64,000 bases of DNA from Burkholderiales bacterium RIFCSPHIGHO2_12_FULL_63_20. Lineage in GTDB: Bacteria > Pseudomonadota > Gammaproteobacteria > Burkholderiales > Burkholderiaceae_C. The translations under genes and the position numbers were made by a program. The notes beneath the pieces were generated by a model. That model did not search any database, had not been told where the DNA came from, and worked only from the letters and a program-made list of their open reading frames with translations. Below, in pieces: positions 5,178 through 34,582 of the stretch. Each line of letters opens with the position of its first letter. The first letter of the stretch is position 1. The stretch spans positions 1 through 64,000 of the forward strand of contig MESA01000006.1 in the NCBI GenBank assembly GCA_001770775.1, written 5' to 3'.

Positions 5178-5190
5178 ACCTGCACCATCC

Positions 5191-5895: not shown

Positions 5896-6100
5896 ACGGA
5901 GGACTCAATCATGTTGTGCATCCAGAAAGCGGCCCCCTATTCCGGTGGATGGGGGTAAAAGCCTACAAACGTAACAATTTGTAAGAAGAGTTTGATGCCA
6001 GAATGATCAAATCATGACACAGCCGTTCTGTGCCATTGAGCCTTCAGGCCCCTGCTTTCGTGGCGCGGGCAGTGTTTGCGCACAAGAAACCGAGGATTTC

Positions 6101-7942: not shown

Positions 7943-7970
7943 TACCCGGCTGAATCGGCACCACCCCATG

Positions 7971-7996
7971 CAAAGCGCCCTGACCGGGGCGCTTTG
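7971..7996 (+). terminator. Rho-independent-like terminator after the TolC gene
   Basis: A perfect 10-bp stem CAAAGCGCCC (7971-7980) / GGGCGCTTTG (7987-7996) has a six-base loop. It lies 29 bp after the stop codon and is followed by a short T-containing stretch. It separates the secretion gene from the GGDEF-EAL gene. Confidence 0.8.
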
Positions 7997-8067
7997 TCAT
8001 TCAGGGCTTGTCAACGATTTGACACACATGGATTGCACACTCGCGGCTTTCTTGTCCTGTCCTCATC

Positions 8068-10428
8068 GTGCGCACTCTCTTTTCCCTGCCGTCCCGCGCA
8101 TGGCTTGATTCCCTGGGCACTCAACGCGGTCGCTGGCTGCTGGTCGTCAGCACCAGCCTGTCGCTGGGTTTACTGGCGCTGGTCTGGAGCTTCACCTGGC
8201 AACGCCTGGAATCTGAAAAAATGCTGACGCGGGCCAACGCCAACGTCCAGCAGCAAAACCTCACGGCCATCATTTCCGAGAACCTCGGCCAGGTTCTCGA
8301 CCGTGGCAAGCTGATGGCCATCACCGCAGAAAGCTGGTTCGACGGGCATGAAAGCGAAGTGCCTGCGCGCCTCAGTGCGATGATTGCCGCCGACAGAATC
8401 TTCCTGCGGGTGGTGCTGTATGACAGGCAGCTTCGCCGCGTGTACGCCAGTTCACCGGGCGAAGATCCGCCCGCCCTCCACAGCGCCATGGGCCGCTTCC
8501 TTCATCCTCCGCAAGGGCAAGCCATGGCGCGTCTGGCCATGGCCCCGCGCCCTCAGGCCGATGAGCAAGCCTGGCAAATCCCGCTGATGATCCCCGTGCT
8601 GGGCAAGGATGACCGTGCCGCCGGGGTGCTGCTGGTTGTGCTCGACCTTGGCTACTTTCTCCAGCTGTACCAGCACATCGACATCGGACGCACCGGCCTG
8701 ATCCAGGTCATCCGCCACGACGGCGAGATCGTGGCCGAAGCGCGCCAGGAGGGCCTGGTGCTACAGCGACAGGTGGCCCACGTCACGCCACACCTGCTGC
8801 CGATCAACCACCCCCAGGGCGCCATGGAAGCCGAGCTGTACCGAGACGGCCGCACCTTCCTGTCGAATTACCAGCAGTCCGATCACATGCCCTTGCGGGT
8901 CGTGGTCAGCCGGGAAATGAACGACATCCTGGCGCCGCACAAGGCCACCCGCAACCGCTTCCTGAGCCTGCTGTTGGTGGTCAGCACCCTCTTCCTCGGC
9001 GCCACGTTCTGGGTCACACAGGGCATACGCCGTCAAGGCCGCTATGCGGCGGCACTGGCGCAAGCCGACCAGAACAACCGTGCCTTGATTTCGCAACTGG
9101 AAGAAGAAAAGCGCCGCGCCTTCGTCATGGCCGCACACGACCCGCTGACCGGCCTGCCCAACAGGCGGATGTTCAACGAGCTACTGAACAGCCATTTGCA
9201 ACAGGCCAAGCGCAACCGCAAGCACTACGCGCTCATGTACATGGACTTGGACCGCTTCAAGCAGGTCAACGACACGCTGGGGCACCATGTGGGGGACCTG
9301 CTGCTGCAAGCCGTCTCCGCCCGTTTGCGCTCACTCTTGCGAGAATCGGATCTCATCGCTCGCCTGGGCGGAGATGAATTCGCCATCCTGCTGACGGCCT
9401 TGCCGCGTGCCGACGATGCGGCGGTCGTCGCCAGCAAGATCGTCACCGAGCTCTGCAAGCCCTTCCCCAACCTGGATGGTCACGACATCGAGGTCAGCCC
9501 CAGCATCGGCGTCGCCCTGTTCCCTCGCGATGGCAACGACACTGACGCTCTGTGCCGCAATGCCGACGCCGCGATGTACCAGTCCAAGCGCGCCGGCCGC
9601 GCCCGCTACACCTTCTACGACGCTTCGCTGAACCCCACCGATGCCCGGCTCTTCAACCTCGCTCAGCGCCTGCCCAAGGCGATCGCAGAAGGTGAACTGG
9701 TGCTGCATTTTCAGCCCAAGGTCAACCTGTCCAACTACCAGATCAGCGGCCTGGAAGCACTGGTGCGATGGCAGCACCCCGAGCTCGGCCTGATCTACCC
9801 CAACGACTTCATTCCGCTGGCCGAACGCACCGGGGCCATTGTGGAGCTCGGTGACTGGGTGGCCGAGGCCTGCTGTCGACAACTCGCCAGCTGGCGGGCA
9901 CAAGGTCAGCGTCTGGTTCCCATCGCCTTCAATGTCTCGGCCATCCAGTTGCACGACGACCTGCTGCCCGAGCGCATCGCACAACTGCTGGCCCAGTACA
10001 ACCTGTCTGGGGAGTTGCTCCAGGTGGAGATCACCGAGACCTGCCTGGTCGAATCCATGGACGTCGCCAGCACCGTGCTCAACCAACTGGAGCAGCTGGG
10101 CATCCACATCTCACTGGACGATTACGGCAGTGGTTTTTCCAGCCTCGGCTACATCCGCACCCTGCCGATCCACTGCCTCAAGATCGACCGCGGTTTCATC
10201 CACGACATCCGCAACAGCCCGGACGACGCCGTCATCGTCAGCTCCATCATCACCCTGGCCCACAACCTGAACATGTGCGTGGTGGCCGAAGGCGTCGAGC
10301 TGGTCGATCAGCTGGTTCACCTGAAGACCGCGGGTTGCGATCAGGTACAGGGCTATTTCTTCAGTCGCCCGGTTCCTGCCGACAAGGCCAGCGAACTGCT
10401 CAGCCTCCCCTCTCTCGCCCCCTCATGA
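8068..10428 (+). CDS. Membrane sensor GGDEF-EAL protein (c-di-GMP turnover)
   Basis: The 786-aa protein starts at GTG 8068. A TM helix (about 24-44) leads into a ~260-residue periplasmic CHASE/Cache-like sensor region. A second TM (about 302-322), a short coiled coil and then GGDEF (from DPLTGLPNRRMF; active site RLGGDEFAILL) and EAL (LEALVRWQHP, EITET, DDYGSGFSSL, KIDRGF, EGVE) domains follow. Both active-site signatures look intact, so the protein may synthesise or hydrolyse c-di-GMP depending on signal. Its place beside the Lap genes suggests it sets the local c-di-GMP level read by LapD, but that is inference. The stop overlaps the start of the next gene (ATGA), implying coupling to the periplasmic binding protein. 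Confidence 0.92.
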   Translation: MRTLFSLPSRAWLDSLGTQRGRWLLVVSTSLSLGLLALVWSFTWQRLESEKMLTRANANVQQQNLTAIISENLGQVLDRGKLMAITAESWFDGHESEVPARLSAMIAADRIFLRVVLYDRQLRRVYASSPGEDPPALHSAMGRFLHPPQGQAMARLAMAPRPQADEQAWQIPLMIPVLGKDDRAAGVLLVVLDLGYFLQLYQHIDIGRTGLIQVIRHDGEIVAEARQEGLVLQRQVAHVTPHLLPINHPQGAMEAELYRDGRTFLSNYQQSDHMPLRVVVSREMNDILAPHKATRNRFLSLLLVVSTLFLGATFWVTQGIRRQGRYAAALAQADQNNRALISQLEEEKRRAFVMAAHDPLTGLPNRRMFNELLNSHLQQAKRNRKHYALMYMDLDRFKQVNDTLGHHVGDLLLQAVSARLRSLLRESDLIARLGGDEFAILLTALPRADDAAVVASKIVTELCKPFPNLDGHDIEVSPSIGVALFPRDGNDTDALCRNADAAMYQSKRAGRARYTFYDASLNPTDARLFNLAQRLPKAIAEGELVLHFQPKVNLSNYQISGLEALVRWQHPELGLIYPNDFIPLAERTGAIVELGDWVAEACCRQLASWRAQGQRLVPIAFNVSAIQLHDDLLPERIAQLLAQYNLSGELLQVEITETCLVESMDVASTVLNQLEQLGIHISLDDYGSGFSSLGYIRTLPIHCLKIDRGFIHDIRNSPDDAVIVSSIITLAHNLNMCVVAEGVELVDQLVHLKTAGCDQVQGYFFSRPVPADKASELLSLPSLAPS

Positions 10429-13377: not shown

Positions 13378-15432
13378 ATGAGCCGCCAGCCCGCGCCAAG
13401 CAGCCTCCTGCCTGACGAGCGGCGCGCCGTGCGCCCAGTCGTGCGCGTAGACAAACTGGTCAAACGCTACGACCTGGTGGAAGCCGTTCGCGCGGTCTCG
13501 CTGGAAGTGAAACCCGCCCAGATCTACGGCCTCATCGGTGCCGACGGCGCCGGCAAAAGCAGCCTCATGAAGGTGATCGCCGGGGTACTCAGTCACGAAG
13601 AAGGCAAGGTGGAGGTGCTCGGCCAGCTCATCGACTCCGAGCGTCAGGCCGAGAAAGTCAAAAGCGCCCTTGGCTTCATGCCACAGGGCCTGGGCCTGAA
13701 CCTCTACCCCACGCTGTCCATCGAAGAGAACATCGACTTCTTTGCCCGCCTGCGCATGGTGCCACCTGAGCTGTTGCGCGAGCGCAAAGAACGCCTGCTG
13801 GAGGTGACACGGCTGAGCGCCTTCCGCGCCCGCCCGGCCGGCCAGTTGTCGGGGGGCATGAAACAAAAGCTCGGGTTGATCTGCACCCTGATCCACGCAC
13901 CGCGCCTCATCATTCTCGATGAACCCACCACAGGGGTAGACCCTGTCTCGCGCCGCGACTTCTGGCTGATCCTGGCGCAACTGATCCACACCGAGCAGAT
14001 CACTGCCCTCATCTCCACGGCCTACCTCGATGAGGCCAGCCGCTTCGACCACGTCGCGCTGATGCACGAGGGGCAGATCATCCTCGAAGGCCCGCCCGAC
14101 CTGCTGATCGATCGCAGTGACGCCACCATCGTGCAGTGCCCGGCCGAGGGTGCTGCACTGGCTGCACTCACGACCGCCTTCCCCCAGAACGAAGCCACCC
14201 AAGGTCAGGTCCGGCTGTTCGTGCCCCTGCGGGACGCCGCTCAGGCCCAGGCGCAAGTGCAGGCCACCTTGGTCGCCGCCGGCTTGCCCAAGGTCGAAGC
14301 GCCCATCGTCACCCGCCCGCAGCTGGAAGACCTGTTCATTGCCCGGCTCTGGACCGATGCCATCGCCGCCCGCTCCTACCTCCCACCCTCCACCTCCCGG
14401 GGCACAGCCGGCACCCTGGCTGATGCGCCTGCGCCGTTTCAGTCTCACGCAGTCGACACCGGCTGGGCCATCGACGCACAGGCCTTGACCCGCGATTTCG
14501 ACCAGTTTCGCGCGGTCGATGGCGTGTCCTTCCAGGTCGGCTATGGCGACATCTTCGGGCTGCTGGGTGCCAACGGTGCAGGCAAGACCACAGCCATCAA
14601 GATGCTGACCGGCATCCTGCCTCCCAGTGCCGGTCTGGGCCGTGTCGCCGGCTCCGACATGCGCCATGCCCGCCAGGCCATCAAGGAACGCATCGGCTAC
14701 ATGTCGCAGGCGTTTTCGCTCTACACCGACCTGACGGTGGAAGAAAACCTGATGCTGTTCGCTGGCGTCTACGGCCTGCCGCGCAAGGTCGCCCGCGAAC
14801 GCGCCCGCTGGGCCATTGAGCTGGGTGAACTGCATGGCTACGAACAGGTCGCTGCCATCAGCCTGCCCATGGGCCTGCGTCAGCGTCTGGCCCTGGGCTG
14901 TGCCCTGGTCCACCGCCCCCGCGTGCTCTTCCTGGACGAGCCCACCTCGGGCGTCGACCCGATTGGCCGCAAGCACTTCTGGAGCATTTTGCGCAAACTG
15001 GCCCGTGAAGACGGCGTCGCCATCCTGCTGACCACGCACTACATGGCCGAGGCCGAGCTGTGCGACCGCGTGGCCATGATGTACGCGGGCCGTGTGGTCG
15101 CCGACGCCCCGCCCGCCCAGCTCAAGCTGGATCTTCTGGCCCGCCGCGGTCAGCTGCTGGAGGTCACGCCGCGCAACGCCCTGCTGGCCATGCAGGCCTT
15201 GCAGGACGCTGGCTTCGACCAGGCTGTGCTCCACGGGCGCAACATCCACATCATGTCGCACCAGCCCGAGGCAGACCGCGCGCGCATCTTCAGCGTGCTG
15301 CGTGCGGCCCGCCAGCGCAGCGCCAACGTCATCCCCCGGCCCCTGACCATGGAAGACGTCTTCATCGACATCGTGCTCAGCCGCGAAGGCCAAGGCGCAA
15401 ACGCTGACACCCACGCGCAGGAGGCTGCATGA
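13378..15432 (+). CDS. Dual-domain ABC transporter ATPase (YbhF-like)
   Basis: I take ATG 13378, four bases after the upstream stop, giving 684 aa. Two complete nucleotide-binding domains are fused. The first has Walker A GADGAGKS, signature LSGGMKQ and Walker B ILDEPTTGVDP. The second has Walker A GANGAGKT, a divergent signature PMGLRQRLA and Walker B FLDEPTSGVDP. It energises the two permeases encoded next, and its stop overlaps the first of them (ATGA). The divergent second signature is common in this subfamily, so it is not by itself a sign of inactivity. Confidence 0.92.
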   Translation: MSRQPAPSSLLPDERRAVRPVVRVDKLVKRYDLVEAVRAVSLEVKPAQIYGLIGADGAGKSSLMKVIAGVLSHEEGKVEVLGQLIDSERQAEKVKSALGFMPQGLGLNLYPTLSIEENIDFFARLRMVPPELLRERKERLLEVTRLSAFRARPAGQLSGGMKQKLGLICTLIHAPRLIILDEPTTGVDPVSRRDFWLILAQLIHTEQITALISTAYLDEASRFDHVALMHEGQIILEGPPDLLIDRSDATIVQCPAEGAALAALTTAFPQNEATQGQVRLFVPLRDAAQAQAQVQATLVAAGLPKVEAPIVTRPQLEDLFIARLWTDAIAARSYLPPSTSRGTAGTLADAPAPFQSHAVDTGWAIDAQALTRDFDQFRAVDGVSFQVGYGDIFGLLGANGAGKTTAIKMLTGILPPSAGLGRVAGSDMRHARQAIKERIGYMSQAFSLYTDLTVEENLMLFAGVYGLPRKVARERARWAIELGELHGYEQVAAISLPMGLRQRLALGCALVHRPRVLFLDEPTSGVDPIGRKHFWSILRKLAREDGVAILLTTHYMAEAELCDRVAMMYAGRVVADAPPAQLKLDLLARRGQLLEVTPRNALLAMQALQDAGFDQAVLHGRNIHIMSHQPEADRARIFSVLRAARQRSANVIPRPLTMEDVFIDIVLSREGQGANADTHAQEAA

Positions 15433-16583
15433 ACCTGCTGCGCGTGCGCACCCTGGTGACCAAAGAGGTCAGCGAAGCCCTGCGTGACCGGCTTTATCTC
15501 ACCCTCGCCTTCTTCCTGCCCATTTTGCTGATGCTCGTGTTCACCTACGGCATGACCAGCAACATCGACAACGTCGGCGTCGTCATCGTCGACGAAGACC
15601 AGACCGCAGCCAGCCGCGAATACACCCAGCGCTTTTTGTCCACGCGGCACTTCAAGCAGGTCGAGGTCACCCACGCCCCCACCCGCGCTGACGCGGCCCT
15701 GCCCGCCTACCAGGCACGCCTGCTCATCTGGGTCGGCTCGGGCTTTGAGCGTCAACTCCAGAACGGCCAGACCGCGAAGGTGTCCGTGCAGATCGACGGC
15801 GCGTTCACCGAACCCGCGCGCACCATTGGCGGCTATGTCGAGGCCATCAACGCCCAGGCCAACCAGGACCTGCGCCAACGCTATGCGGCCGCGCAATGGG
15901 GCGCCCGCTCCAGCCTGACACGCCAGGTCACCCACCCCGTGCAACTGCAGACGCGCTACCTGTACAACCCCGAGTTGCGCAGCGTGGCCATGATCGCCCC
16001 CGCGCTCATGATGATGATCCTGATGATGTGCCCGCCCCTGCTGATCGCCGTCAGCGTCGTGCGCGAGAAAGAAAGCGGCTCCATCTACAACATCGCCAGC
16101 TCCACCGTCACCCGCGTCGAGTTCCTGCTGGGCAAGCTCATCCCGGTGGTCGCCATCGGCATGGTCAACGGCTTCATGCTCTGGGCTCTGGTCGCCTTCT
16201 GGTTCGACGTGCCCTTCCGCGGTCACGCCCTGTCCTTCACCCTGGCCCTGCTGCTCTACGTCGTCGCCACGTCCAGCATGGGCCTGCTCGTGTCAGCAGC
16301 GGTCAAGACCCAGCAGGCGGCCATCATCATCACCACCATGACAGCGGTGATCGCGTCCATGCAGTTCGCGGGACTGTTCGCACCACTGGAGACCGCCGAC
16401 CCGGTCAACCAGTTCATCAGCCACCTCTTTCCAGCGGCCGACTTCCTGCGCGTGATCCGTGGCATCTATGTGCGCGGCGCAGGCGTCGAGGTGTTCTGGC
16501 CGGAGATGCTCTCCATGGCCGCCTACGGCGCCATCGCCCTCACGCTGGCTCACACCCTGTTCCACAAAAGGACCGCCACATGA
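15429..16583 (+). CDS. ABC-2 type permease (YbhS-like)
   Basis: The ATG overlaps the ATPase stop (ATGA). The 384-aa protein has one N-terminal TM helix (about 22-42), a large extracytoplasmic domain (about 45-175) and a block of five TM helices (about 180-375), the standard ABC2_membrane_3 layout. The conserved VREKESGSIYNI segment marks the cytoplasmic coupling region. It pairs with the next gene product to form the channel of the exporter. Confidence 0.92.
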   Translation: MNLLRVRTLVTKEVSEALRDRLYLTLAFFLPILLMLVFTYGMTSNIDNVGVVIVDEDQTAASREYTQRFLSTRHFKQVEVTHAPTRADAALPAYQARLLIWVGSGFERQLQNGQTAKVSVQIDGAFTEPARTIGGYVEAINAQANQDLRQRYAAAQWGARSSLTRQVTHPVQLQTRYLYNPELRSVAMIAPALMMMILMMCPPLLIAVSVVREKESGSIYNIASSTVTRVEFLLGKLIPVVAIGMVNGFMLWALVAFWFDVPFRGHALSFTLALLLYVVATSSMGLLVSAAVKTQQAAIIITTMTAVIASMQFAGLFAPLETADPVNQFISHLFPAADFLRVIRGIYVRGAGVEVFWPEMLSMAAYGAIALTLAHTLFHKRTAT

Positions 16584-17722
16584 GCCTGCGCCGCTGGCTC
16601 ACCCAGGTGAGCGCCCTGATGACCAAGGAGTGGAAGCAGCTCTACCGCGACCGCGCCCTGCTGAGTTTCGTCATCTTCATCTTCACGCTCGACATCCTGC
16701 TGGCGTCTGGCGCACCCGCGCTCGACCTCAAGCAGACCCCCATCGGCATCATCGACCGCGACCACAGCGCCCTGTCGCGCGAGCTGATCTACAAGCTGCC
16801 GGCGCAGCAGTTCACCGTCGTCCCCATGGCCGATCAGGACCAAGCCGTGTCCCACGCCCTGGAACGCGGCGAACTGCGCGGCGTGCTCACCATTCCCCAC
16901 GGCTTCGAGAAGGACCTGCTGCGTGCGCAAAGCCCGGCCCTGCAACTGGTGGTGGACGCCAGCGACGCCAACCTCGGGTTCCTGCTGTCGAGCTACACCG
17001 AGCGCATCCTGTTCACGCTCAGTGGTGAGCTCGTCGGCGGGCAGGCGGCCGCGCAAGGGCGGTCCGTGGTGCTGCCGCAGATCGACATCCAGTCACGCAC
17101 CCGCTTCAACCCCAGCCTGACCGAGTCCTGGTACGCCACCCTGTCCGAACTGCTGACCATGGTGACCGTGGCCTGCATCCTGCTGCCCGCAGCCGCCCTG
17201 GTGCGCGAGAAGGAACGCGGCACCGTCGAGCAGTTGCTGGTGTCACCGCTGTCACCGCTGCAAATCGTGCTGGCCAAGGCCTTTGCGATGACCTCGGTGG
17301 TGCTGCTGGGCTCGCTGGTGGCCGTCGGGCTCGTCATGCACCAACTTGTGGGCGTGCCGTTCGTGGGCAGCCCGTGGGTCTTCTTCAGCCTGATCGCGCT
17401 CTACGCCATCACCAGCTCCGGCCTGGGCGTGCTGGCCTCCACCTTCGCGCGCAACTCCGGCCAGGTCGGCCTCATCGTCGTGCTGCTGGTCATGCCCATC
17501 ATCATGCTCTCGGGCACCTGGAGCTTGCGTGAAAGCATGCCGGATTGGTTGCAAAACATGGTGGCCTTCTCGCCCATGACCTACTTCGTGGACATCGCCT
17601 ACGGCGTGCTGCTCAAAGGCAGTGACATGGCGGTGCTGTGGCCCAAGGCGCTGAAGATGTCACTGCTCGGGCTGGCATTCTGGGCACTGGGCGTTTACCG
17701 TTTCCAACGCCAGTTCCGCTGA
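16580..17722 (+). CDS. ABC-2 type permease (YbhR-like)
   Basis: The start is ATG 16580, overlapping the previous stop by four bases (ATGA), giving 380 aa. The layout is one N-terminal TM, an extracytoplasmic domain, then five TM helices. VREKERGTVEQLLVSPL is the family coupling motif. It is the last gene of the exporter operon and ends 74 bp from the convergent protease gene. No clear terminator hairpin is visible in that gap. Confidence 0.92.
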   Translation: MSLRRWLTQVSALMTKEWKQLYRDRALLSFVIFIFTLDILLASGAPALDLKQTPIGIIDRDHSALSRELIYKLPAQQFTVVPMADQDQAVSHALERGELRGVLTIPHGFEKDLLRAQSPALQLVVDASDANLGFLLSSYTERILFTLSGELVGGQAAAQGRSVVLPQIDIQSRTRFNPSLTESWYATLSELLTMVTVACILLPAAALVREKERGTVEQLLVSPLSPLQIVLAKAFAMTSVVLLGSLVAVGLVMHQLVGVPFVGSPWVFFSLIALYAITSSGLGVLASTFARNSGQVGLIVVLLVMPIIMLSGTWSLRESMPDWLQNMVAFSPMTYFVDIAYGVLLKGSDMAVLWPKALKMSLLGLAFWALGVYRFQRQFR

Positions 17723-17796: not shown

Positions 17797-18591
17797 TCAC
17801 GGACGCTGCCGGGCCATCATTTCGCGCACATGGCGTGCCGGAATGGCATACGAAATGCCTGATGGCTGGCTCAAGGCAGACTCGCGCGCGCCCTTGAGCA
17901 TCACCATGTTCACTACCCCCACCACCTCGCCGGAGACGGGGTCGAACAAGGGACCGCCGCTGTTGCCCGGGTACGCGGTGGCATCGAGCTGAAAGATCTG
18001 GAAGTTGCCTTCGCGCAAGCCCCGAATGGCCCGCTCGTTCAGCTGACCGCTCTGCGCCGAAGGCAGCCGAGCCTGTGTGATCGACGACACCATCGCCCGG
18101 TGCGTCACCGACGAAAACCCCAACGCCCCACCAATCGGAAAGCCCATGAAGGCCAACTCCTGCCCCTCCTTGACGCGATCCGAGTCCGCCAGTGACAAGG
18201 CCGGCACCGGTGGCCCATCGATCTGCAGCAGTGTCAGGTCATGGAACACGTCCTTGTCGAGCACCTGCGCGGCCCGCGTCTGAAACGTATCAGGGCCGGT
18301 GCGCACCTGCACCACCAGTTGCCCCTGCGGCGGGGCACTGCCAGGGGCTTGCAGCACATGGGCATTGCTCACCACCCAGTTGCCCGAGCCCACCACAAAG
18401 CCCGTGCCCCGCAGGCTGAAGCGCGGCGCCGCAGTCGGGTTGTAACTGCCCACGATCACCACCGAGGGCTTCACCTTGGAGATGGTGTCCGGCAGGGCGT
18501 TGTGTTGGGCCACCGCTGAAGCGCCCCACGTCACCAGCGTACACAGCAGCATCTGGCGCCCCCAGGGTGCCCATTTCGTGCAAATCGACAT
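17797..18591 (-). CDS. Exported trypsin-like serine protease
   Basis: The 264-aa protein has a signal peptide ending near SAVAQ (about residue 29) and a chymotrypsin-fold protease domain. The triad is readable as His78 (VVSNAHV), Asp118 (HDLTLL) and Ser211 (YPGNSGGPLF). There is no PDZ domain, so it is not a full HtrA/DegP protein. Its ATG directly follows the stop of the nucleotidyltransferase gene (TGAATG), making it the last gene of the minus-strand operon that starts with the Tat-exported Cys-rich protein. By context it may process or degrade that exported protein in the periplasm; this is inference. Confidence 0.85.
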   Translation of the reverse strand: MSICTKWAPWGRQMLLCTLVTWGASAVAQHNALPDTISKVKPSVVIVGSYNPTAAPRFSLRGTGFVVGSGNWVVSNAHVLQAPGSAPPQGQLVVQVRTGPDTFQTRAAQVLDKDVFHDLTLLQIDGPPVPALSLADSDRVKEGQELAFMGFPIGGALGFSSVTHRAMVSSITQARLPSAQSGQLNERAIRGLREGNFQIFQLDATAYPGNSGGPLFDPVSGEVVGVVNMVMLKGARESALSQPSGISYAIPARHVREMMARQRP

Positions 18592-19692
18592 TCAAGCTCC
18601 TTGGGAGGGCGACCGCCACAGCTTTCGCAACAGGTGCAGCGTCAACAAGCCCGGCGGCATCCGCAGCCAATGACCGCGCAGGTACAGAAAACCACGGGCC
18701 AGCGGAGTCCACCGGTCGGCCACCAAAGGGTGAGGTGGGCACAACACCCGCGTGAACATCGCGTCCATCCACTTGAGGCGCCACGCCCCCGGACGTGCAC
18801 CGTGCGCCTGATCCAGCCCTGCCAACACGTCCTGCGGCACCACGGTGCCCAAGATCATGCCCACATAGCGCAAGGCATAAAACAAGGGTCGCGTGAGCTG
18901 CAAGGCGGTGGCGCGCGCTACCAGATGTGGCCAGAAATCAGGCGCCGAGCCATGTTCGCGCAACAGGGCATCCAGGTCAACCAGGCCACGCATGCCCTGC
19001 TCGAAACTGCCCTCGTGCATCAAATGGGTGGCGCTGTGCAACACCATGTCGATCGGGGCCAGCACATGCAGGCACGAGCCCGGCTGCAAGGGCCGGGCTT
19101 CGCTCAACAGCAAGGCCGAGCTGGGATGGATGCGTGCCGAAACCGGCATGATCGCGTGGTGCACATCCAGCACCGTGCCCCGCTGAAGGTGCTGCATCGG
19201 CGGCAACTCGTGCATCCAGGTGCGGTAGTAGCGCTGGTCGTAATCCGACCGCGCCGAGCTTGCCCAGCCACCTAGCATCAGTGCCGCCTCTACCTCGGGC
19301 AAAGCGGTCTTCGGCACCAGCACGTCCACATCCGACACCACGCGCCCCTTGGCGGCATCCAGGTCGGCCGCCACATAGGCCGCGCCCTTGAGCAGCACCA
19401 CCGGGATGTTCAACGAGCGCAACGCCAGCTCGATCTCCTGAATCTCGTAACCCAGCTCGCGGTGCTGGCGATCAGCCAGGCGCAGCGCCGACTCCAGATA
19501 CTTGCGCGGCGCCTCAGGAATCTGATCCCATACCCCGTCGCGTTGAGCCAGAAAGCCCAGCCGCGCCGACAGGTCGGCCACCCGCGCCAGACGGATGACA
19601 TGGTCCCACTGTTGCCCTGAGAACAATGCCATCTCCTGGGGCCGCTGCAGCGCACGCACCAGCATGACCTGCCCCGTGGTGCCGCCGCTCAT
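18592..19692 (-). CDS. Nucleotidyltransferase-fold protein (NTP_transf_5 type) of an HPr-rel-A-like system
   Basis: The 366-aa protein carries the features of the PF14907-type uncharacterised nucleotidyltransferases. These are VVLLKGAAY (about 98-106), the metal-binding SDVDVLV (Asp121, Asp123) and a third acidic strand LDVHH (Asp176). The C-terminal half is helical. Members of this family occur beside HprK-like kinases and PqqD-like proteins, including in lasso-peptide clusters, where they extend or nucleotidylate a phosphorylated peptide. It overlaps the kinase gene by four bases (ATGA). The predicted role is transfer of a nucleotide or phosphate to a peptide or protein; the target is not known. 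Confidence 0.8.
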   Translation of the reverse strand: MSGGTTGQVMLVRALQRPQEMALFSGQQWDHVIRLARVADLSARLGFLAQRDGVWDQIPEAPRKYLESALRLADRQHRELGYEIQEIELALRSLNIPVVLLKGAAYVAADLDAAKGRVVSDVDVLVPKTALPEVEAALMLGGWASSARSDYDQRYYRTWMHELPPMQHLQRGTVLDVHHAIMPVSARIHPSSALLLSEARPLQPGSCLHVLAPIDMVLHSATHLMHEGSFEQGMRGLVDLDALLREHGSAPDFWPHLVARATALQLTRPLFYALRYVGMILGTVVPQDVLAGLDQAHGARPGAWRLKWMDAMFTRVLCPPHPLVADRWTPLARGFLYLRGHWLRMPPGLLTLHLLRKLWRSPSQGA

Positions 19693-20609
19693 GCGCTCAA
19701 CCGGTCAAAACACGCCAGGGCCTCGTCGAGGTCGCTGTAGTGGAGGTCATAGACGTCGCAGCGCTCGACCACGTCGGCCAAGGTCTCGAACCCCTGCCGA
19801 CCATGAACATGGTGGTTGAAACTGTTGCGATGCAGGTGCAGCAAGGCGTCGGCCTTGGCGCGCGCGCTCAGCGTCAACGGTGCGCCGGCCACATAGCGAG
19901 GAAAGATGATCCAGGCAGGCGTCGCCAACTCACGCGCGCGCGCCGTGCTGTCGGCCGACACCTGCATGTGGCACACCGTGCCCTTCATGGTGTCGAGCGC
20001 CACGGGCCCCATGACCGCACTCGGCGCCCGGCGTCGCATGATGTCGATGGACGCATTCTTTAGGCTGATGGGTCGGGGAGACGCCGTGAGCAAACCGGTG
20101 CGGGGGTCGAGCAAAGCCATCTCGTCAGAGAGCAGGCGCCAGCCATCGAGCATCAAGGCCGCGCACAGCGTGCTCTTGCCCGAGCCAGGTGGCGCAGGCA
20201 GGATAACGGCACGCCCATCACGCTCCAGCACTGCAGCGTGCAGGGTGATCCAGTTGTGGCAGTAGCTGGTGATGCACCAGTTGAGTCCCCACTCAAGGAA
20301 TGCATAGGCCTCACCGTAGGCCAGGGGGGTGAAGGGTTGCTGCCCGTCCATCTCAAACAGGCACAGCGGGCGCGATGGGCGCCACTTGCGGCGCACCGAC
20401 ACATGAAAGTCCGCAAACTGACCGCCTTCGGTCCAGCACGCGTGTCCCGCGTACAAACGCTTGATGCCATCGGCCACGATCGGGATGGCACTGCGCACAT
20501 GTACCACGAACGGATCCATGCGCAGATACAGACCCGACGAGCACAGTGCCGCAGACAAGGCATCGGGCAGCACCGCCTGAACCAGGCGTGGTGTCACGCC
20601 GACCGACAC
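19689..20609 (-). CDS. HprK-related kinase A
   Basis: The 306-aa protein (GTG start at 20609) resembles the C-terminal domain of HPr kinase/phosphorylase. It has a P-loop APPGSGKST at about 139-147, the preceding LHAAVLE strand with His124, and the SDEMALLD strand (Asp162, Glu163). The N-terminal ~110 residues are specific to this family. HPr itself is not encoded in the window, so the substrate is probably not the sugar phosphotransferase protein. It overlaps the PqqD-like gene by 16 bp and the nucleotidyltransferase by 4 bp. The triad PqqD/kinase/nucleotidyltransferase is what is annotated as the HPr-rel-A system. By analogy with lasso-peptide HprK-like kinases, it may phosphorylate a serine near a peptide C-terminus. 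Confidence 0.85.
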   Translation of the reverse strand: MSVGVTPRLVQAVLPDALSAALCSSGLYLRMDPFVVHVRSAIPIVADGIKRLYAGHACWTEGGQFADFHVSVRRKWRPSRPLCLFEMDGQQPFTPLAYGEAYAFLEWGLNWCITSYCHNWITLHAAVLERDGRAVILPAPPGSGKSTLCAALMLDGWRLLSDEMALLDPRTGLLTASPRPISLKNASIDIMRRRAPSAVMGPVALDTMKGTVCHMQVSADSTARARELATPAWIIFPRYVAGAPLTLSARAKADALLHLHRNSFNHHVHGRQGFETLADVVERCDVYDLHYSDLDEALACFDRLSA

Positions 20610-20899
20610 GTCACCACACCCATTGTCCTCAGGTCGTCCAATACCGAACTCACCAACGCGATGTCCGTGTCCTCTGGGGTCTCGCCGATCAGCAAACCGG
20701 CCAAATGCGCGGCGGTCTGAGCTGTTGTCTGGCCCGACTGGTCTGGCGAGTGATTCACCCGGTCCTTCAGCAAGGACAGCAACTGAAATGCCGACTCCGA
20801 CACCTCATACAGGGCCGAATCGGCATCGTCGTACACCACGCCACCGTGCCCGATCCAGCCGCGCAAAGCGAAGCGGGACGAGTTGAACGCGTACTGCAT
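20594..20899 (-). CDS. PqqD-family peptide chaperone of an HPr-rel-A-like system
   Basis: I choose the ATG at 20899 (101 aa). The longer frame, from 21001, would run 49 bp into the upstream gene. The sequence has the PqqD pattern: an N-terminal strand pair (FALRGWIGHGGVVYDDADSA), then LYEVSESAFQLLSLL, and a C-terminal helix ending VVSSVLDDLRTMGVV. PqqD-like domains bind leader peptides and hand them to modifying enzymes (RiPP recognition element). Here the partners would be the kinase and nucleotidyltransferase encoded immediately downstream. The Shine-Dalgarno sequence is weak, so translation may depend on the upstream cistron 53 bp away. Confidence 0.82.
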   Translation of the reverse strand: MQYAFNSSRFALRGWIGHGGVVYDDADSALYEVSESAFQLLSLLKDRVNHSPDQSGQTTAQTAAHLAGLLIGETPEDTDIALVSSVLDDLRTMGVVTCRSA

Positions 20900-20952
20900 C
20901 GTCAAACTCAAAGCACCTACTTTAACCACACACCCAACCGAAGCCCAACACG

Positions 20953-21618
20953 TCAGCCACAGCTGCTTCCGTCCGATTGTGACGATGGATTGATCAGGCA
21001 ATCGCTGAAGCCCGTACCGGAGTACACGCGCGCGAAGTAATCACAGGTGTCGGACAACCCCCAGCGAACGCCGGCGGTGGGCTCCCAGCTACCGTAATTG
21101 CGCCAAATGTCCTTGCACCGCTGCTCGCTGATGTAGGAATCACTACCGTACTTCTTGGCCGACAAGTAACCCGCCGCCAGATACTGCGCCAGACGCTCCA
21201 TGTCCGAGCGTTCATTCATCTTGAAAACCTGCTTCAAGGTCTTCTTGGCGATGGCAGGGCTTGGCGTCATTTCAAAGCCACAGCCACGCTTGTGGCTTCT
21301 GTCACAGCCATCCGGGCCAAACAGCAAGTCATCGCAGCCTTGGTGCTTCTCGCACTCGCTCATCGGAATGAACGATCCGGTGGTTTTCGCGTTGGGCGCC
21401 ACACTGCCCCCCGTGGTCGTCAACGATGCGAAAGAGGAGGCACGAACCGTCACATTGGTGCCGCTGGTTGCAGCCAACACCATGTTGCCCTTGAAGGCCG
21501 CCACAACAGGCGCCGCAGCCAGACCAGCACGCACCAGCTTACGTCGACTGGTGTTGACTCCAGCGGGCGGCACGTCCACGCCTGTGGTCTGCGTGCGCTC
21601 GTTTTGCTGATCTGACAT
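20953..21618 (-). CDS. Tat-exported cysteine-rich protein, possible substrate of the HPr-rel-A-like system
   Basis: The start is ATG 21618, with AAGGGG placed 4 bases upstream; the longer frame to 21678 is not supported. The 221-aa product has a twin-arginine signal (SRRKLVRAGLAAAPVVAAF) followed by a mature domain with eight cysteines. Four are in SECEKHQGC and DGCDRSHKRGC, and four lie in the C-terminal third. It ends in a serine-rich tail, NPSSQSDGSSCG. I do not recognise a family fold. Tat export and an even number of cysteines suggest a folded, possibly metal- or disulfide-containing periplasmic protein. It is the first gene of the operon with PqqD, kinase, nucleotidyltransferase and protease, so it is the best candidate for their target; this is inference. 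Confidence 0.75.
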   Translation of the reverse strand: MSDQQNERTQTTGVDVPPAGVNTSRRKLVRAGLAAAPVVAAFKGNMVLAATSGTNVTVRASSFASLTTTGGSVAPNAKTTGSFIPMSECEKHQGCDDLLFGPDGCDRSHKRGCGFEMTPSPAIAKKTLKQVFKMNERSDMERLAQYLAAGYLSAKKYGSDSYISEQRCKDIWRNYGSWEPTAGVRWGLSDTCDYFARVYSGTGFSDCLINPSSQSDGSSCG

Positions 21619-21698
21619 GGTGTACCCCTTGAAACTCGATGTATGTGCCCCGTGCCGCACACAAGCCGTGTCCGACACTGAACCTCAGCCTCAACTCA

Positions 21699-21713
21699 TG
21701 CAATTTTCATACC
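21699..21713 (-). promoter_or_regulatory. Candidate sigma-54 promoter of the Tat/HPr-rel-A operon
   Basis: Read on the minus strand the site is GGTATGAAAATTGCA: a -24 GG and a -12 GC separated by exactly ten bases, with a full TTGCA element. It lies 80 bp before the ATG of the Tat protein, a normal distance. It is the best such match I saw in the intergenic gaps. The nearest sigma-54 activator is PrsR, encoded 3 kb upstream on the same strand. Confidence 0.55.
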
Positions 21714-21727
21714 GATTTTCGAACACA

Positions 21728-21817
21728 TCGACAAGTACTTGATTTGCTTGAGAATCTACAGATGGCAGGCTGCAATTTCGCGAATCTGATTTCGCACTGT
21801 CAAAAATCTCGACAAGT
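21728..21817. repeat. Two direct copies of TCGACAAGT upstream of the sigma-54 site
   Basis: The 9-mer TCGACAAGT occurs at 21728-21736 and at 21809-21817, 81 bp apart, the second overlapping the prsT stop. Between them is the inverted repeat GCGAA-N6-TTCGC (21780-21795). The distance, about eight helical turns, and the position upstream of a sigma-54 site are as expected for enhancer-binding sites. Function is inferred. Confidence 0.4.
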
Positions 21818-24600
21818 CAAAGTGACTGAAGCATCTTATCGACTTCCGCCTGGCGGTTGAACTTGTCACCCACCTGTTTGAGCGCCTGCAAGTTGGCTTT
21901 CGCACTGGCCTTGTCGCCAGCCTGAATCTGGATCTGCGCCAGGTTGAACTTGAGCAAGTGCGCCTCTGGCTGGAGCTGCAACGCTCGCTTCTGAATCTCC
22001 AGGGCTTTGCTGACGTTCTTCTCCGAGGCCAGCAGCATCGCCCAGGTGTCCAAAATGGACGGGTTGTTCGGGGCCAGTTTGTCGGCCTTCTCTACCAGGC
22101 TCAAGGCATCCTTGCGACCCAGCTTGCCCGCCACCCAGGCCAGGTTGTTGAGGGTGAGCGCGCTGTTCGGCTGCAGGTCCAGCGCCTTCTGGTAGTAGCC
22201 GGCCGCCGCATTCAGGTTGTTGTCCGCCACCGCACGGTCTCCCATGTACAGCGTGAACACCACATCCTTGGGGTGGCTGCGCAGCCATGAGCTGGCCAAG
22301 GCGTCGGCCTCGCGCTTTTTCTGGGCCACCAGCTGCACAGAGTGCAGCTTGACGGCCAGATCCGAGGCATTGGGCGCCAGCTTCAACGCCTTCTCATACG
22401 CCAGGATCGCCGCCGCCCAGTTTTTTGCGGCGGCCTGTACTTCGCCTTCCAGCGCAAAGCCCACCGCTTCCTGCGGACGCTGCGTCTGTATCTCCTTGAC
22501 CATCGCCAGGGCGTCGGGCACACGTTTGCCGCGCACCGCCAACTCGGTCAGACCTTGCTGTGCAGCCAGCAAATTAGGCTGAATCTCCAAGGCCTTGCGC
22601 AGGCTTTGAGCCGCCCCGGCGGCATCCTGGTTGGCCATGTAGACCCCCGCCATCCGCAGGTGCGGCAGCGTGGACTGAGGCTGCATTGAGGCCATCTTGC
22701 CGTAGCTGCTGATTGCCTGGTTGAACTCCTTCGCCGCCACCTGGGCCTGGCCCAGGCTGTCCAGCAACTCAGGGCTCTTGGGCAGCGCCGCGACGGCGTT
22801 CTGTGCGGCCGTCAAGGCCACCTTGGGCTCCTGATTGAGCAGGTGGTGTGCCACCAGAATCTGACGCGGCAGCAACTCGTTGGGGGCGACCTCGACCGCC
22901 TTGCGCAGCAAGCCAGCGATCTCGTCCTTGTTGACGCCCCGCAGCGTTTTCACGCGGGCCAAGCCCAAAATGGCCTGCACGCTGTCGGGCTTACGGGCCA
23001 GCAGGGCCTCAAAGCGCTTTTGTGCCGCGTCTGGCTGCTTTTGCGCCAGGTCCAGCTCGGACAGCGCACCGATCGCCGGGAAGAAGTCTGGCGACACTTC
23101 AAGTGAGCGCTCCAGGGCTTTGCGCGCCCCGGCCAAATCGCCTTTCTTCATCAGCACCTGCGCTCGCAGATGGCTGGGAATCGGGTCTTCTGGCGGACGC
23201 TTCTTCTCCAGTTGCGCAATGGCCTTCAACGCCTCGTCCAGCTTGCCTTGCCTGGCCAGCACGTTGATCATGGCCATGTCAGCCACCACCCCGGTGTCGC
23301 TGGCCGCAATGTCCTGCAACTCGCTGAAACCCACATCGGTCTGGCCCGCGGCCAGTTTGCTCACCGCCAGCGACGTGCGCTTCATCGGATCCTTCGGATC
23401 CAGTGCCGAGGCCTTCGCGAAATAGCGCTGAGCCAGCTCCTGGTCACCGTGAACCATGTAGGCCTGCCCGGCCGCCGACAGCATGGCGGGATCGTTGTCG
23501 ATCTCGTCGAGGTTGCCAGGCAAGGTGGCAATCGCCTTGTCAACCTGTCCCAAACGCAGGTAGGTCATGACCAGCATGCGGCGCGCCAGCTTCAAGTCAG
23601 GCGCCGCGGCCAGCGCCTTGGACAGCATGGACTCGGCCTGGATCAGGGCATTGGACTGGGCTTCGATGGTGCCCGCCAGCTCCAGGGCCTGCGGACTGTT
23701 CGGGGTGGCCCGCAAAAGCTGTTGTGCCGCTTCACGCGCGCCCTTCAGGTCTCGCTTCTTCAATGCCAGCTGAGACTGCAGGTACAGCGTGTAAGGCGCC
23801 GTCGCCGCCATCTTCTTCAGCGCATCCATTTCCGTGGTGGCCTCGGAGAGCTTGTTCTGCGCCATGAGGACACGCACGATGCTGGCCTGCGCGTCCTTGT
23901 AACCCGGCTTGACCTTGAGCGCCTGCCGGTACGACGCCAGCGCCTCATCAGCTCGTTGCTGGCCGAACAGTTGAATGTCGCCTCGCAACTTGTAGGCCTC
24001 TTCATTCTGCGGCGCCACTTTCACGATCTGATCGATCTGCGCCAGCGCCCCTTCAAAGTCCTTGTTCGAGGCCGTCATCCGGGCCTGCAGGATCAGGGCG
24101 GACGCATGCTTGGGATCGAGCTTCAGCGCATCGGCCAAGCTGGCCTGAGCCAGATCGGCCTTGCCCTGTGCCAGCCACGCACCGGCCAGCAGTGTCAGCA
24201 ACTCCGCCTGCGCGGCAGGATCCGAAAGCCGAGTCTGCGCATAGGTGTCGGTGAGCTTCTTGTGTTCGCCCAGGCTGAGCATCACGCGCGCCATCACCGG
24301 CACGATTTGCTCTTGTGCGTATCCGGCGTCCTGCGCCTTCTTCAACTCCGTCTGGGCCCCCGACGCATCGCCAGTCACCAGCAAGGACTTTGCCAACAGG
24401 AAACGTGCCTCAGCCAGATCAGGCTGAGCCTGCAGAGCGTTTTTCAGCTGGATGATGGCCGCTGCGTGGTCGCTCTTGGCCATGTAGTCTTTGGCGGACT
24501 GCATCAGCTTGGCGGGGTCGTTGCCACTGCAGGCCGCCAGCACCAATGTCAAAGTCAGCGCGGCCGGGAGAGAGCGAAATACAGAAGGTTTGTGCTTCAT
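21817..24600 (-). CDS. prsT: XrtA/PEP-CTERM system TPR-repeat lipoprotein PrsT
   Basis: The start at ATG 24600 gives 927 aa and a lipoprotein signal with lipobox LAAC (LTLVLAACSGND); the frame extends seven codons further upstream without support. The mature part is almost entirely tetratricopeptide repeats (AKSDHAAAIIQLKNAL, KALDLQPNSALTLNNLAWVA). This is the signature of PrsT, a very large TPR protein linked to exosortase A exopolysaccharide loci. It probably scaffolds export or assembly of polysaccharide at the membrane, but its exact role is not established. It follows prsR by 27 bp in the same direction. Confidence 0.92.
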   Translation of the reverse strand: MKHKPSVFRSLPAALTLTLVLAACSGNDPAKLMQSAKDYMAKSDHAAAIIQLKNALQAQPDLAEARFLLAKSLLVTGDASGAQTELKKAQDAGYAQEQIVPVMARVMLSLGEHKKLTDTYAQTRLSDPAAQAELLTLLAGAWLAQGKADLAQASLADALKLDPKHASALILQARMTASNKDFEGALAQIDQIVKVAPQNEEAYKLRGDIQLFGQQRADEALASYRQALKVKPGYKDAQASIVRVLMAQNKLSEATTEMDALKKMAATAPYTLYLQSQLALKKRDLKGAREAAQQLLRATPNSPQALELAGTIEAQSNALIQAESMLSKALAAAPDLKLARRMLVMTYLRLGQVDKAIATLPGNLDEIDNDPAMLSAAGQAYMVHGDQELAQRYFAKASALDPKDPMKRTSLAVSKLAAGQTDVGFSELQDIAASDTGVVADMAMINVLARQGKLDEALKAIAQLEKKRPPEDPIPSHLRAQVLMKKGDLAGARKALERSLEVSPDFFPAIGALSELDLAQKQPDAAQKRFEALLARKPDSVQAILGLARVKTLRGVNKDEIAGLLRKAVEVAPNELLPRQILVAHHLLNQEPKVALTAAQNAVAALPKSPELLDSLGQAQVAAKEFNQAISSYGKMASMQPQSTLPHLRMAGVYMANQDAAGAAQSLRKALEIQPNLLAAQQGLTELAVRGKRVPDALAMVKEIQTQRPQEAVGFALEGEVQAAAKNWAAAILAYEKALKLAPNASDLAVKLHSVQLVAQKKREADALASSWLRSHPKDVVFTLYMGDRAVADNNLNAAAGYYQKALDLQPNSALTLNNLAWVAGKLGRKDALSLVEKADKLAPNNPSILDTWAMLLASEKNVSKALEIQKRALQLQPEAHLLKFNLAQIQIQAGDKASAKANLQALKQVGDKFNRQAEVDKMLQSL

Positions 24601-24627
24601 TTCAAGGTCCACTTCGAACACAGAGAC

Positions 24628-25985
<1,358 letters not shown>

Positions 25986-25989
<4 letters not shown>

Positions 25990-28061
25990 GCACCCTCTCC
26001 GCTGAGTATGTTGCCGGGTTGCACCACGTCCATCACAGGGAGCAGCAAGGTCACGAGGGTGCCCTCGCCTTCCTTGCTCTCGACCGTCATCTTGCCACCC
26101 AGTTCTTGTATGTATTGCAGGCTCTCGTACGCACCGATGCCCATGCCTGCCACCTTCGTCGTCTGGAAGGGTTTGAACAATCGGGTTTGCACGAATTCGT
26201 CACTCATGCCGACACCATTGTCACCGACCTGCAGGCTTGCATGGCTGCCAAATCGATGGGACTTGACCCAGACGTCATGACCTTGGTGTTCGGTCGCATC
26301 GAGGGCATTTTGAATGAGGTGACCCACCACGCGTTTGAGCCGCTCCACATGGCCCCGGGTGAAGACCTCGGGCTGCAGATCAAGACGCACGGTGCGTCCA
26401 CGGCTCTCGGCCGACCTGGCCCATTCCTGGGCGATCGCTCCCAGGTCCACCCCAACGGCGCCGCCCGATGGCGCCGCCCCCTCGCGCAACTGCATCATCA
26501 ACTGCTTCATGCGCTCCAGCGAGTTCTCCACCGTCATCAGCATGTCGGCCTGGAACTCGGGGTTGTGCTGCAGGCGCTTGGCGTTCTTCACCATCAGCGA
26601 CAACTGGGTAACGATGTTCTTGAGGTCGTGGACCACAAACGCGGACATGCGGTTGAAGGCGTCGAACTTGCGAGATTCGAGCAAGGCCTCCGTGGCCTGC
26701 ATCTGGGCCAGGAAACTCGCGGCCTGGGCCGCCGCCGTCTTGAGCAAGTCAGTCACTTCCCAGTTGAGTTCCAACTCCGTGCGCGGCTGCGCCAACAAGA
26801 CAAAGCCCAACTGCTCTCCGCCAATGGGCAGGGGCACCAGCAACCAAGCTTGCTTGAGCTCCAGCAGCCAGTCGGGCAGGCTCAGCCCTTCATAGCGTTG
26901 CGGATGGCTTTGAAACTCCTTGACGTCGATCACCCAGCCCGTGCGCTTCATGAACTGCGCCAGCACCGATGTCAGCGGCTCCATCGCCGTGGACTGCGGC
27001 ACGTTCCAGCGGGCCACCTGCACGAAATGGCTGTGCTCGGCGTTGAGCAGCCACAAGGCCCCCGCCGGGCTCTCCACCATGTCGGCCAGGCCACGGATCA
27101 CATGCTGACTGAGTTCCTGAGGCTGGGTGTGGCTCGTCAAGGTGCGGGTGAACTTGAGCCCCTCCTCGCGGTAGTCGTAGCGGTAGCGCAGAAAGTGCTT
27201 GCCCAGCCACACCCTCACGCGCGCACGCAAAGTGCCCGAGAGCCCCACCGCCACCAGCGCCACCACGGCCAAAAAGACCAGGGCCACTTGCAGCACCCGC
27301 CCCCAATGCCCGCCAAAGTAGCGCACGTAGTAGCCCAGCGACGAGATGAACAGCAGGTAAAGCCCGGCCATCATCAGCGTGGCCGAGTGGAACACCACCT
27401 GGCGTGACACCTGGATCTTGGAGATCCAGTTGCGATGGCGCGCGCTGGGCAAGATCAGCAGCGGCACCATCAAGGCGTGGACAAAACCGCGTGCGGCGGC
27501 CGCATCTTCGTCCATGCCGTTGAACAAGGCCGCTTCCGAGAACAGGTACACATCGAACAGCAGCGTTCCGGCCAAGCCCAGGCAGATGGGCTTGGCGCTC
27601 CAGCGCGCATCGGAGGGAAGGTTGCGAAACAGCTGCTCGATCAAAACCAACCCGAACACGGCCAGCACCGTCATGGGCATGAAGTGAGGCGTGAAGGTCG
27701 CCACAGCCGTCAAGCCGATCGCCACCCAGGTCAAACGGCGCACCAGCATGCTGCGATGGCCGCCATCGCTGCGGGCCTGGCCCAGCAAGTGCAGCACGAA
27801 TGCAAACCACAGGCCGTAGCGCGCCACGTCCAGCCAGCGCGGCAGCCAATGCCACACGCCCTCGAGCTGCAGCAGGTACACGGCAGGCACGCTCCAGGCC
27901 CAGACCACCGAGGCCAGGGTCGCAGGCAAGATCGTCTGGGTGGACCGATGCCCCTCGGTTTGCTGCCCACGCTGCCACAGCAGGCGCAGCGTCAGAACCA
28001 GGTAAGCCAGGCCAGCCAGCGCCTGCCCTGCAACCATCAACAGGTCGGCATCCAATGGCAT
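25986..28061 (-). CDS. prsK: XrtA/PEP-CTERM system sensor histidine kinase PrsK
   Basis: The 691-aa inner-membrane kinase begins with about ten TM helices (residues 5-290). A GAF-like cytosolic region follows, then a dimerisation helix with the phospho-acceptor His in FVVHDLKNIVTQL. An HATPase domain completes it, with the N box (HLIQNALDA), DNGVGM and GMGIGAYES. The replacement of the usual HExxxP by HDLKN is typical of PrsK. It partners PrsR, with which it overlaps by four bases. The signal is unknown; the membrane block suggests sensing in or near the bilayer. Confidence 0.95.
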
Positions 28062-31479: not shown

Positions 31480-31489
31480 GGCCACCGCC

Positions 31490-34289: not shown

Positions 34290-34325
34290 GAATTGATGTT
34301 ACGGCAGAAACTCTAGAATGCAGGC

Positions 34326-34580: not shown

Positions 34581-34582
34581 AC

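Follow-up and report, generated by a model that had tools for sequence, protein, structure and literature searches.

What do the enzymes encoded by a compact set of five genes in Burkholderiales bacterium RIFCSPHIGHO2_12_FULL_63_20 act upon? The set lies at 17797-21618 of the stretch of DNA analysed here (hereafter the window; 64,000 nt, positions 1-64,000 of contig MESA01000006.1, assembly GCA_001770775.1), the proteins of which were named by scanning them against NCBIfam and Pfam. An initial annotation had placed there five open reading frames (ORFs), namely those of a Cys-rich protein exported by the twin-arginine translocation (Tat) pathway, a PqqD-like protein, an HprK-related kinase, a nucleotidyltransferase (NTase) and a protease, tied together by overlaps. 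All five are indeed present, on the minus strand, and so are the overlaps: 16 bp between the PqqD-like and HprK-like genes, 4 bp (ATGA) between the latter and the NTase gene, and TGAATG between the NTase and protease genes. With a kinase that reaches 364 bits against TIGR04352 (HprK-related kinase A, cut-off 200), a PqqD-type protein and PF14907 together, the operon belongs to the HPr-rel-A system (TIGR04352/TIGR04353). For this system, NCBIfam names the kinase and the PqqD protein, and we found no substrate model; what we add here is a partner protein with a Tat-type signal, a conserved Ser motif and a link to exosortase A. It is our belief that the Tat protein is very probably the substrate of the trio made up of the PqqD-like protein, the kinase and the NTase. 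An orphan, widely distributed modification system would thereby acquire a definite protein to consider as its substrate and, within it, a single residue to look at. What is more, the place of a precursor in the operon is taken by the Tat gene, which reverses the earlier remark that no precursor gene is present.

A Tat-signal protein beside the kinase

Co-occurrence of the Tat protein with the kinase across genomes had been set beforehand, in the initial annotation, as the test that could refute its proposal, and the prediction was borne out: 168 of the 174 distinct loci encode, close to the trio, a partner protein with a twin-Arg signal. These stem from 186 gathered loci, namely 49 from an order draw (an even draw of 300 genomes, 50 of which, the window genome included, are above the kinase cut-off), 80 from named genomes (80 kept of 574 confirmed relatives), 56 from a phylum draw (61 of 398 genomes above the cut-off; 49 of the 55 new ones were taken together with 7 weak ones, six above-cut-off matches, G375, G351, G459, G359, G482 and G466, being left out) and the window itself. 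Dropping 5 duplicates left 181 distinct loci, of which 174 score at least 200 bits on our own kinase profile, and the 7 loci with a kinase below 200 bits (L239-L245) stand outside this number. Partners were called by a strict pattern rule, a relaxed rule and profile searches, with six placed by hand. The first strict rule alone fired in 146 of the 181 loci, in a few of them spuriously (e.g. L238 and L240), and L064, L211 and L238 were removed as false relaxed or strict matches, L064 later proving to have a downstream partner.

The partner gene is directly upstream in 158 loci, downstream on the same strand in 8, divergent in 1 and 2-3 kb away in 1. By source, it was found in 49 of 49 loci of the order draw, in 75 of 75 from named genomes once duplicates had been removed, in 43 of 49 from the phylum draw, and in the window. 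The Tat-type signal was called by our own pattern rule, which fires in 96 of 1571 control ORFs as well; under the strict signal rule, the upstream slice is positive in 135 of the 161 loci with enough sequence, as compared to 13/153, 17/149, 11/157 and 14/111 for slices of equal width taken elsewhere. The Tat gene lies 3' of the NTase gene in seven loci, so that a look upstream only would miss them; five belong to family code f44 and two come from named genomes. In L047, L055, L061, L062, L064, L114 and L142 the Tat gene is not the first of the operon but stands downstream of the kinase, its open frame starting 0.8-1.3 kb away, and the genes found upstream resemble prmC or hslV.

One can also start from the partner. 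The profile of the window's partner group, with at most 11 candidates scored per genome, matches 41 of the 300 order-draw genomes, and 38 of these 41 have the kinase; for matches spanning both the signal and the motif described below, the figure is 35 of 35. The three matches without a kinase consist of two body-only matches, in open frames of 1046 and 1301 amino acids, and one in G046, which we attribute to chance, since it covers 38 columns only and runs antisense to a 959-amino-acid ORF.

The partner family and its serine motif

What kind of protein is the partner? That of the window (20953-21618, minus strand; start ATG at 21618, with AAGGGG five bases upstream) has 221 amino acids, eight of them Cys, and a twin Arg at residues 25-26. 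Its signal region (S24, R25 and R26 to about A50; 21469-21549, minus strand) includes the features of a Tat signal, i.e. the twin Arg, a hydrophobic stretch and a cleavage-like end. The protein has no match in Pfam or NCBIfam. Similarly, 64 aligned members of its family gave no NCBIfam match at E<=0.01, PEP-CTERM models included, and three weak single-member matches in Pfam, one of them to TAT_signal. The structural model of the window protein has a mean pLDDT of 68, is confident for approximately residues 100-180 only and matched nothing at E<=0.001 in the PDB or the viral library, and its sequence matched no PDB sequence.

Grouping 162 partner candidates by BLAST (E<1e-6, with the match extending beyond the signal) gave groups of 108, 30, 8, 7 and 2 members (groups 0 to 4) and seven singletons; the window protein is in group 0, and group 2 enters the motif counts with nine members after correction of the frame of L229. 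The body of group 0 is a TPGYW-type domain, for which we found no Pfam name in the group-0 partners. The same domain is present in large open frames of L277 (G067:C65), L278 (G184:C43), G108:C33 and G088:C22, those of L277 and L278 being repeat-rich. Between the profiles of groups 0 and 1, 28 columns align, and these cover the signal, not the body; for the remaining groups, the comparison was made with BLAST alone. Signals of both groups share P-x-hydrophobic-hydrophobic-T-hydrophobic towards the signal end, and they are alike beyond the twin Arg; a Thr or Ser ahead of the cleavage site is for the most part conserved. Two further partners, L066 (10294-10674, minus strand) and L162 (3684-4025, plus strand), have bodies of low complexity, in which Ser, Asn or Gly abound; neither matches the motif, yet both keep a Tat-type signal and the operon place. 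As for the eight Cys, in which the initial annotation had seen a signature of the family, they have to be given up as its hallmark: eight are present in only 12 of 106 group-0 partners, members of groups 1-4 mostly contain none to five, and a Cys column common to 99 of 107 group-0 proteins is missing from the window protein.

The most conserved columns of the family lie elsewhere. Namely, in the alignment of 107 group-0 proteins conservation is highest for the Arg pair (105 and 107 proteins) and for two Ser (105 and 106) that are four residues apart, in an S-small-x-x-S arrangement soon after the signal. In the window protein, the two Ser columns correspond to S61 and S65 of the motif S61-S62-F63-A64-S65-L66 (21421-21438, minus strand), with S65 as the proposed acceptor. 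Alignment A2, which holds 64 of the 108 group-0 proteins and has a mean column identity of 19%, keeps R26, S61 and S65 (window numbering; R6, S41 and S45 after trimming) as its sole invariant columns. Alignment A3, with 24 of the 30 proteins of group 1, has six, one of which is the C-terminal Ser of a SCWTSF-like end. C-terminal tags are likewise found in group 2 (TCFASL), group 3 (SCWTSF) and group 4 (SAWNSV/SSWSSL-type). In other words, the tag is located just after the signal in group 0, whereas in groups 1-4 it lies 1 to 16 residues short of the C-terminus. The strict pattern [ST][CAGS][FWYML].S[FLIVGM] occurs in 69/106, 28/30, 9/9, 7/7 and 2/2 proteins of groups 0 to 4 and in 0/4 singletons (L238, L212, L158 and L116 were excluded from these counts), against means of 5.9, 0.9, 0.1, 0.3, 0.1 and 0.3 in shuffled sequences, a margin that is descriptive and not an independent test, since the pattern was derived from the same proteins. 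Whatever the pattern chosen, two alignments whose bodies do not resemble each other both retain such a Ser, and each of them has only a handful of invariant residues. On the kinase tree (111 of the 174 kinases, 93 labelled rows), the position of the tag, N- or C-terminal, changes 2 times, as compared to at least 24 times in 200 shuffles of the labels. A tag that follows the signal in one group and is C-terminal in four points to enzymes that recognise a short stretch of residues, and, if they do, the tag could be moved to other proteins.

Would the same conservation be expected if the motif were not a modification site at all? It could be a structural or binding tag, e.g. for a polysaccharide or for a recognition element (RRE) of the type found with ribosomally synthesized and post-translationally modified peptides (RiPPs), with the kinase acting on something else. 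A docking tag could well sit near one end of the mature protein, as the motif does, and groups 1-3 mostly have a Cys three residues before the Ser (SCWxS, TCFAS). However, the Ser pair of group 0 is more conserved than the residues surrounding it, and the related kinases are known to modify either a Ser at the C-terminus or one close to where the core begins (PMC8498205, PMC13381572). We therefore regard a pure binding role as unlikely, if worth keeping in mind. Another reading is that the product of the trio is a small modified peptide of its own, with the Tat protein as an exported helper. After all, the same kinds of enzymes act on short precursors in clusters of lasso peptides and of linear polyphosphorylated peptides (LPPs) (PMC8498205, PMC13381572), and NCBI calls TIGR04353 a 'peptide chaperone'. 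Against this, the sole gap in the window operon, the spacer between the Tat and PqqD-like genes, measures 53 bp (taking the ATG at 20899 as the start of the latter), other loci not having been searched systematically for short ORFs; the Ser pair of the motif and the Arg pair are the best conserved feature of the partner; and the partner group tracks the kinase tree. On balance, a separate peptide strikes us as improbable, and the Tat protein as the far better candidate substrate.

Enzymes, proposed chemistry and known systems

The kinase (19689-20609, minus strand) has H124, K145 of the P-loop, D162 and E163, which are kept in 174 of 174 sequences, and its best profile matches among solved structures are HPr kinases (E 4.6e-4). 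For many genomes of family code f79 (e.g. L239, L243 and L244), the HprK_rel_A-like matches are all weak, reaching approximately 100 bits at most, and may belong to a sister family of kinases that act on other substrates. The PqqD/RRE-like protein of HPr-rel-A type (20594-20899, minus strand) stays below the cut-off of TIGR04353, at 17-18 bits versus 35, while 21 of 22 aligned members match the model at E<=0.01. The NTP_transf_5 NTase-like enzyme (18592-19692, minus strand; PF14907, 183 bits) is present in 163 of the 174 loci, in all 163 on the strand of the kinase, which is consistent with PF14907 being part of the HPr-rel-A system. Its D121, D123 and D176 are kept at 99% or more and are invariant across the 48 rows of alignment A5 (48 of the 163 NTases). 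The nearest folds to its structural model (mean pLDDT 94) are the nucleotidyltransferases MenT1 and ANT(2''), none at E<=0.001 in the PDB; FKRP, a phosphoribitol transferase, is a weak match (E approximately 0.9 to 2.3), and the sequence has chance-level matches only among solved structures.

We propose the following order of events. The trio would form a cytosolic modification cassette acting on the partner Tat protein, which the PqqD/RRE-like protein would present to the enzymes. The tag, [S/T]-[C/A/G/S]-hydrophobic-x-Ser, would be portable, and its conserved Ser, which is S65 in the protein of the window, would be phosphorylated by the HprK-type kinase. NTP_transf_5 would then cap the phosphate; in the simplest case, the cap would be a hexose or a nucleotide joined through that phosphate, in keeping with what has been proposed for PsmN of pseudomycoidin. 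The modified partner would leave the cytosol folded, via Tat, and act at the surface of cells that produce an exosortase-A-type exopolysaccharide. Export in the folded state would fit cytosolic enzymes dependent on ATP and nucleoside triphosphates. What the data show are the gene association, the co-inheritance, the conservation of the motif, the intact active-site residues of the enzymes and the association with exosortase A. From the genomes we infer each chemical step and the order of the steps, the Ser that is hit, the role of the RRE, the export route and the final function. As a whole, modification of the tag Ser by the trio prior to export seems to us reasonably probable. Taken singly, phosphorylation of the motif Ser is what we lean towards, while its glycosylation can be put forward tentatively at best.

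Could the NTase do the work alone? In that case, NTP_transf_5 would put a nucleotide or phospho-sugar directly on the Ser, and the HprK-like protein would regulate or reverse the reaction. The three conserved Asp fit a catalytic triad, and the closeness of the model to MenT1 and ANT(2''), as well as the weak FKRP match, point the same way. However, PsmN of pseudomycoidin works on a phosphorylated Ser (PMC9266682), and we find direct transfer hard to favor.

A number of observations weigh against the proposal as a whole. To begin with, neither a common operon nor the conservation of a Ser proves that enzyme and substrate belong together. No partner was detected in 6 of the 174 loci; L204 (upstream) and L211 (downstream) end at a contig end, the other four do not. 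The strict motif misses 37 of 106 group-0 members and the wide motif 12 of 106, and the singletons L103, L225 and L226 are without a convincing motif. Groups 0 and 1 may share more history than their bodies show, because their signals are alike. A lasso- or LPP-type leader motif is mostly absent from the partners, [Y/W]xxP being present within 45 residues before the twin Arg in 4 of 157 partners and inside the signals in none; the RRE therefore probably reads something else, and the shared signal end of groups 0 and 1 is perhaps a candidate for what the PqqD/RRE-like protein binds. One should add the lack of a PDB match at the above threshold for the NTase model. Finally, the published precedents have limits of their own: LppN was without visible effect in the test host (PMC13381572), and a host glycosyltransferase was not excluded in the case of PsmN (PMC9266682).

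How does the system relate to those precedents? The LPPs of Popov et al. 2026 (PMC13381572) are among the closest known systems, with an RRE, an HprK-like kinase, an NTP transferase and no cyclase in both systems, the RRE-like protein being assigned here by a sub-cut-off match. LppK phosphorylates Ser3 of the peptide core, more than once, and LPP precursors can be likened to the partners described here in that they have a conserved N-terminal region, variable C-termini and a phosphorylated Ser near the start of the core (PMC13381572). However, LPPs belong to Bacillota, with precursors of 35-200 amino acids, a YxxP leader, a SipW-like peptidase and an MsbA-like exporter (PMC13381572), whereas the present system is mainly found in Proteobacteria and has a protein with a Tat-type signal, no YxxP-like leader and a C-terminal tag in four groups. 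Neither a SipW-like peptidase nor an MsbA-like exporter is encoded in the five-gene operon, whose only peptidase is trypsin-like (the rest of the genome was not searched). Lasso peptides offer the second comparison. In those of paeninodin type, the kinase phosphorylates the C-terminal Ser, as PsmK does in pseudomycoidin, where PsmN is needed for the addition of one or two hexoses to that phosphoserine (PMC8498205, PMC9266682). Common to both sides are the HprK-like kinase, the RRE (B1) and, sometimes for lasso clusters, an NTase, as well as a C-terminal Ser acceptor like the proposed one of partner groups 1-4. In this sense, the conserved Ser occupies both kinds of place, near the start as in LPPs and C-terminal as in lasso peptides. 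The difference lies in the operon, which, in line with the missing cyclase of the initial annotation, encodes neither a macrolactam cyclase nor a B2 peptidase among its five proteins; candidates for both are found elsewhere in the same genome.

These candidates are part of a lasso-type cluster in L083 (contig C33 of G000, 380000-399900), at 2360-10132 and 14203-17024 of that locus, which holds an Asn-synthase-like cyclase, a candidate precursor, an HprK-like kinase, a sulfotransferase, a PqqD-like B1 protein, a transglutaminase-like B2 protein, an ABC transporter and an NTP_transf_5 protein. The sulfotransferase beside the lasso kinase deserves mention, and a second pair of cyclase-like and HprK-like genes lies on the same contig. 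Compared with the enzymes of the window, the NTase of this cluster is 22% identical over the match and the kinase 36% over 45 residues. As regards the third system, PEP-CTERM/exosortase A (PMC1569441), it shares the gene neighbourhood and mostly the same genomes with the trio; it differs in that the partner has a Tat-type signal, with no PEP-CTERM model matching any of the 64 members. We do not place the system in the LPP or lasso families, because features that define these were looked for and are absent; we see in it a phospho-tailoring of RiPP-like kind whose target would be a Tat-signal protein.

A search of open-licence papers in PMC found none in which HprK-related kinase A is linked with either a Tat protein or exosortase A, none for TIGR04352, HPr-rel-A or HprK-related, and nowhere a named HPr-rel-A substrate. 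In their accessible parts, a paper on flocs (PMC9850573) does not mention HPr, PqqD, Tat or nucleotidyltransferase, one on the Accumulibacter secretome (PMC12019908) does not mention HPr or twin-arginine, and the RRE-Finder (PMC7470986) and Janthinobacterium (PMC9860564) papers do not mention HPr. RiPP-type enzymes, a whole Tat-signal protein and exosortase-A biofilm loci are three things that we did not find together in the papers searched.

Exosortase A, the protease and the neighbourhood

The setting of the five-gene set, absent from the initial annotation, is an exosortase-A/PEP-CTERM exopolysaccharide cluster, in which it lies directly downstream of PrsK-PrsR-PrsT (21817-28061, minus strand; TIGR02917 for PrsT, TIGR02915 for PrsR and TIGR02916 for PrsK, all above cut-off). 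Going upstream from the operon, the order on the same strand is PrsT, PrsR, PrsK and then EpsB2. A decarboxylase, a ligase and two hydrolases, all named exosortase-A associated, follow at 31490-36295, and exosortase A itself is encoded at 70972-71748 of the same contig, beyond the window. Is this setting peculiar to one genome? Among the 300 genomes of the order draw, 50 have the kinase, 73 exosortase A and 47 both (Fisher p 2.7e-32, genome relatedness ignored), so that exosortase A is present in 47 of 50 genomes with the kinase versus 26 of 250 without it. The kinase system is, in other words, almost confined to exosortase-A genomes, and the gene set adjoins biofilm-sugar genes in many environmental bacteria. 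LPP clusters are often located within capsular polysaccharide loci (PMC13381572), and this parallel with Gram-positive capsule loci hints, by analogy, at a shared role in surface polysaccharide. One could go further and imagine a protein that is phosphoglycosylated in the cytosol on a portable Ser tag and exported via Tat, its sugar stub serving outside as the point where the exosortase-A-type exopolysaccharide is joined or started. We consider this quite unlikely as it stands; if true, it would be a bacterial counterpart of protein-linked polysaccharide.

The last gene of the set encodes a trypsin-like (HtrA-type) protease (17797-18591, minus strand; Trypsin_2, 92 bits), in which the initial annotation had seen the linked final step of the pathway. 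The protease is present in 67 of the 300 order-draw genomes, 64 of which are positive for exosortase A. Among exosortase-A genomes, it occurs in 45 of 47 with the kinase and in 19 of 26 without (Fisher p 0.008, genome relatedness ignored). It goes mainly with exosortase A, and is therefore a neighbour and not a core member of the pathway, though it is enriched with the kinase. The full pathway of the initial annotation, i.e. modification, Tat export and then cleavage by this protease, can draw on that enrichment, on the gene directly following NTP_transf_5 in the window and on L057 and L058, where the protease is on the same strand 88-228 bp past the NTase match, but it appears very improbable, given that most exosortase-A genomes without the kinase still carry the protease, that the two lie within 4 kb of each other in only 16 of the 47 genomes holding both, and that 12 of 46 protease-family members near the kinase are on the opposite strand.

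With PrsR encoded upstream, sigma-54 control of the Tat gene was considered and rejected, as a consensus scan found no site in 21619-21816, before the gene, and 34 matches in the entire window versus 42 expected. A sigma-70 and terminator scan of the locus gave nothing informative. Among the named genomes (80 of 574 relatives kept), the closest locus is that of an Aquabacterium metagenome bin, with a kinase identity of 86%, and the genome analysed here is thus probably a near relative of Aquabacterium. Finally, between EpsB2 and the decarboxylase, at 29533-31554 on the minus strand, lies the gene of a 673-amino-acid protein that matches Wzy_C (O-antigen ligase) weakly, at a score under the curated threshold, and is a candidate for polymerizing or ligating the polysaccharide.

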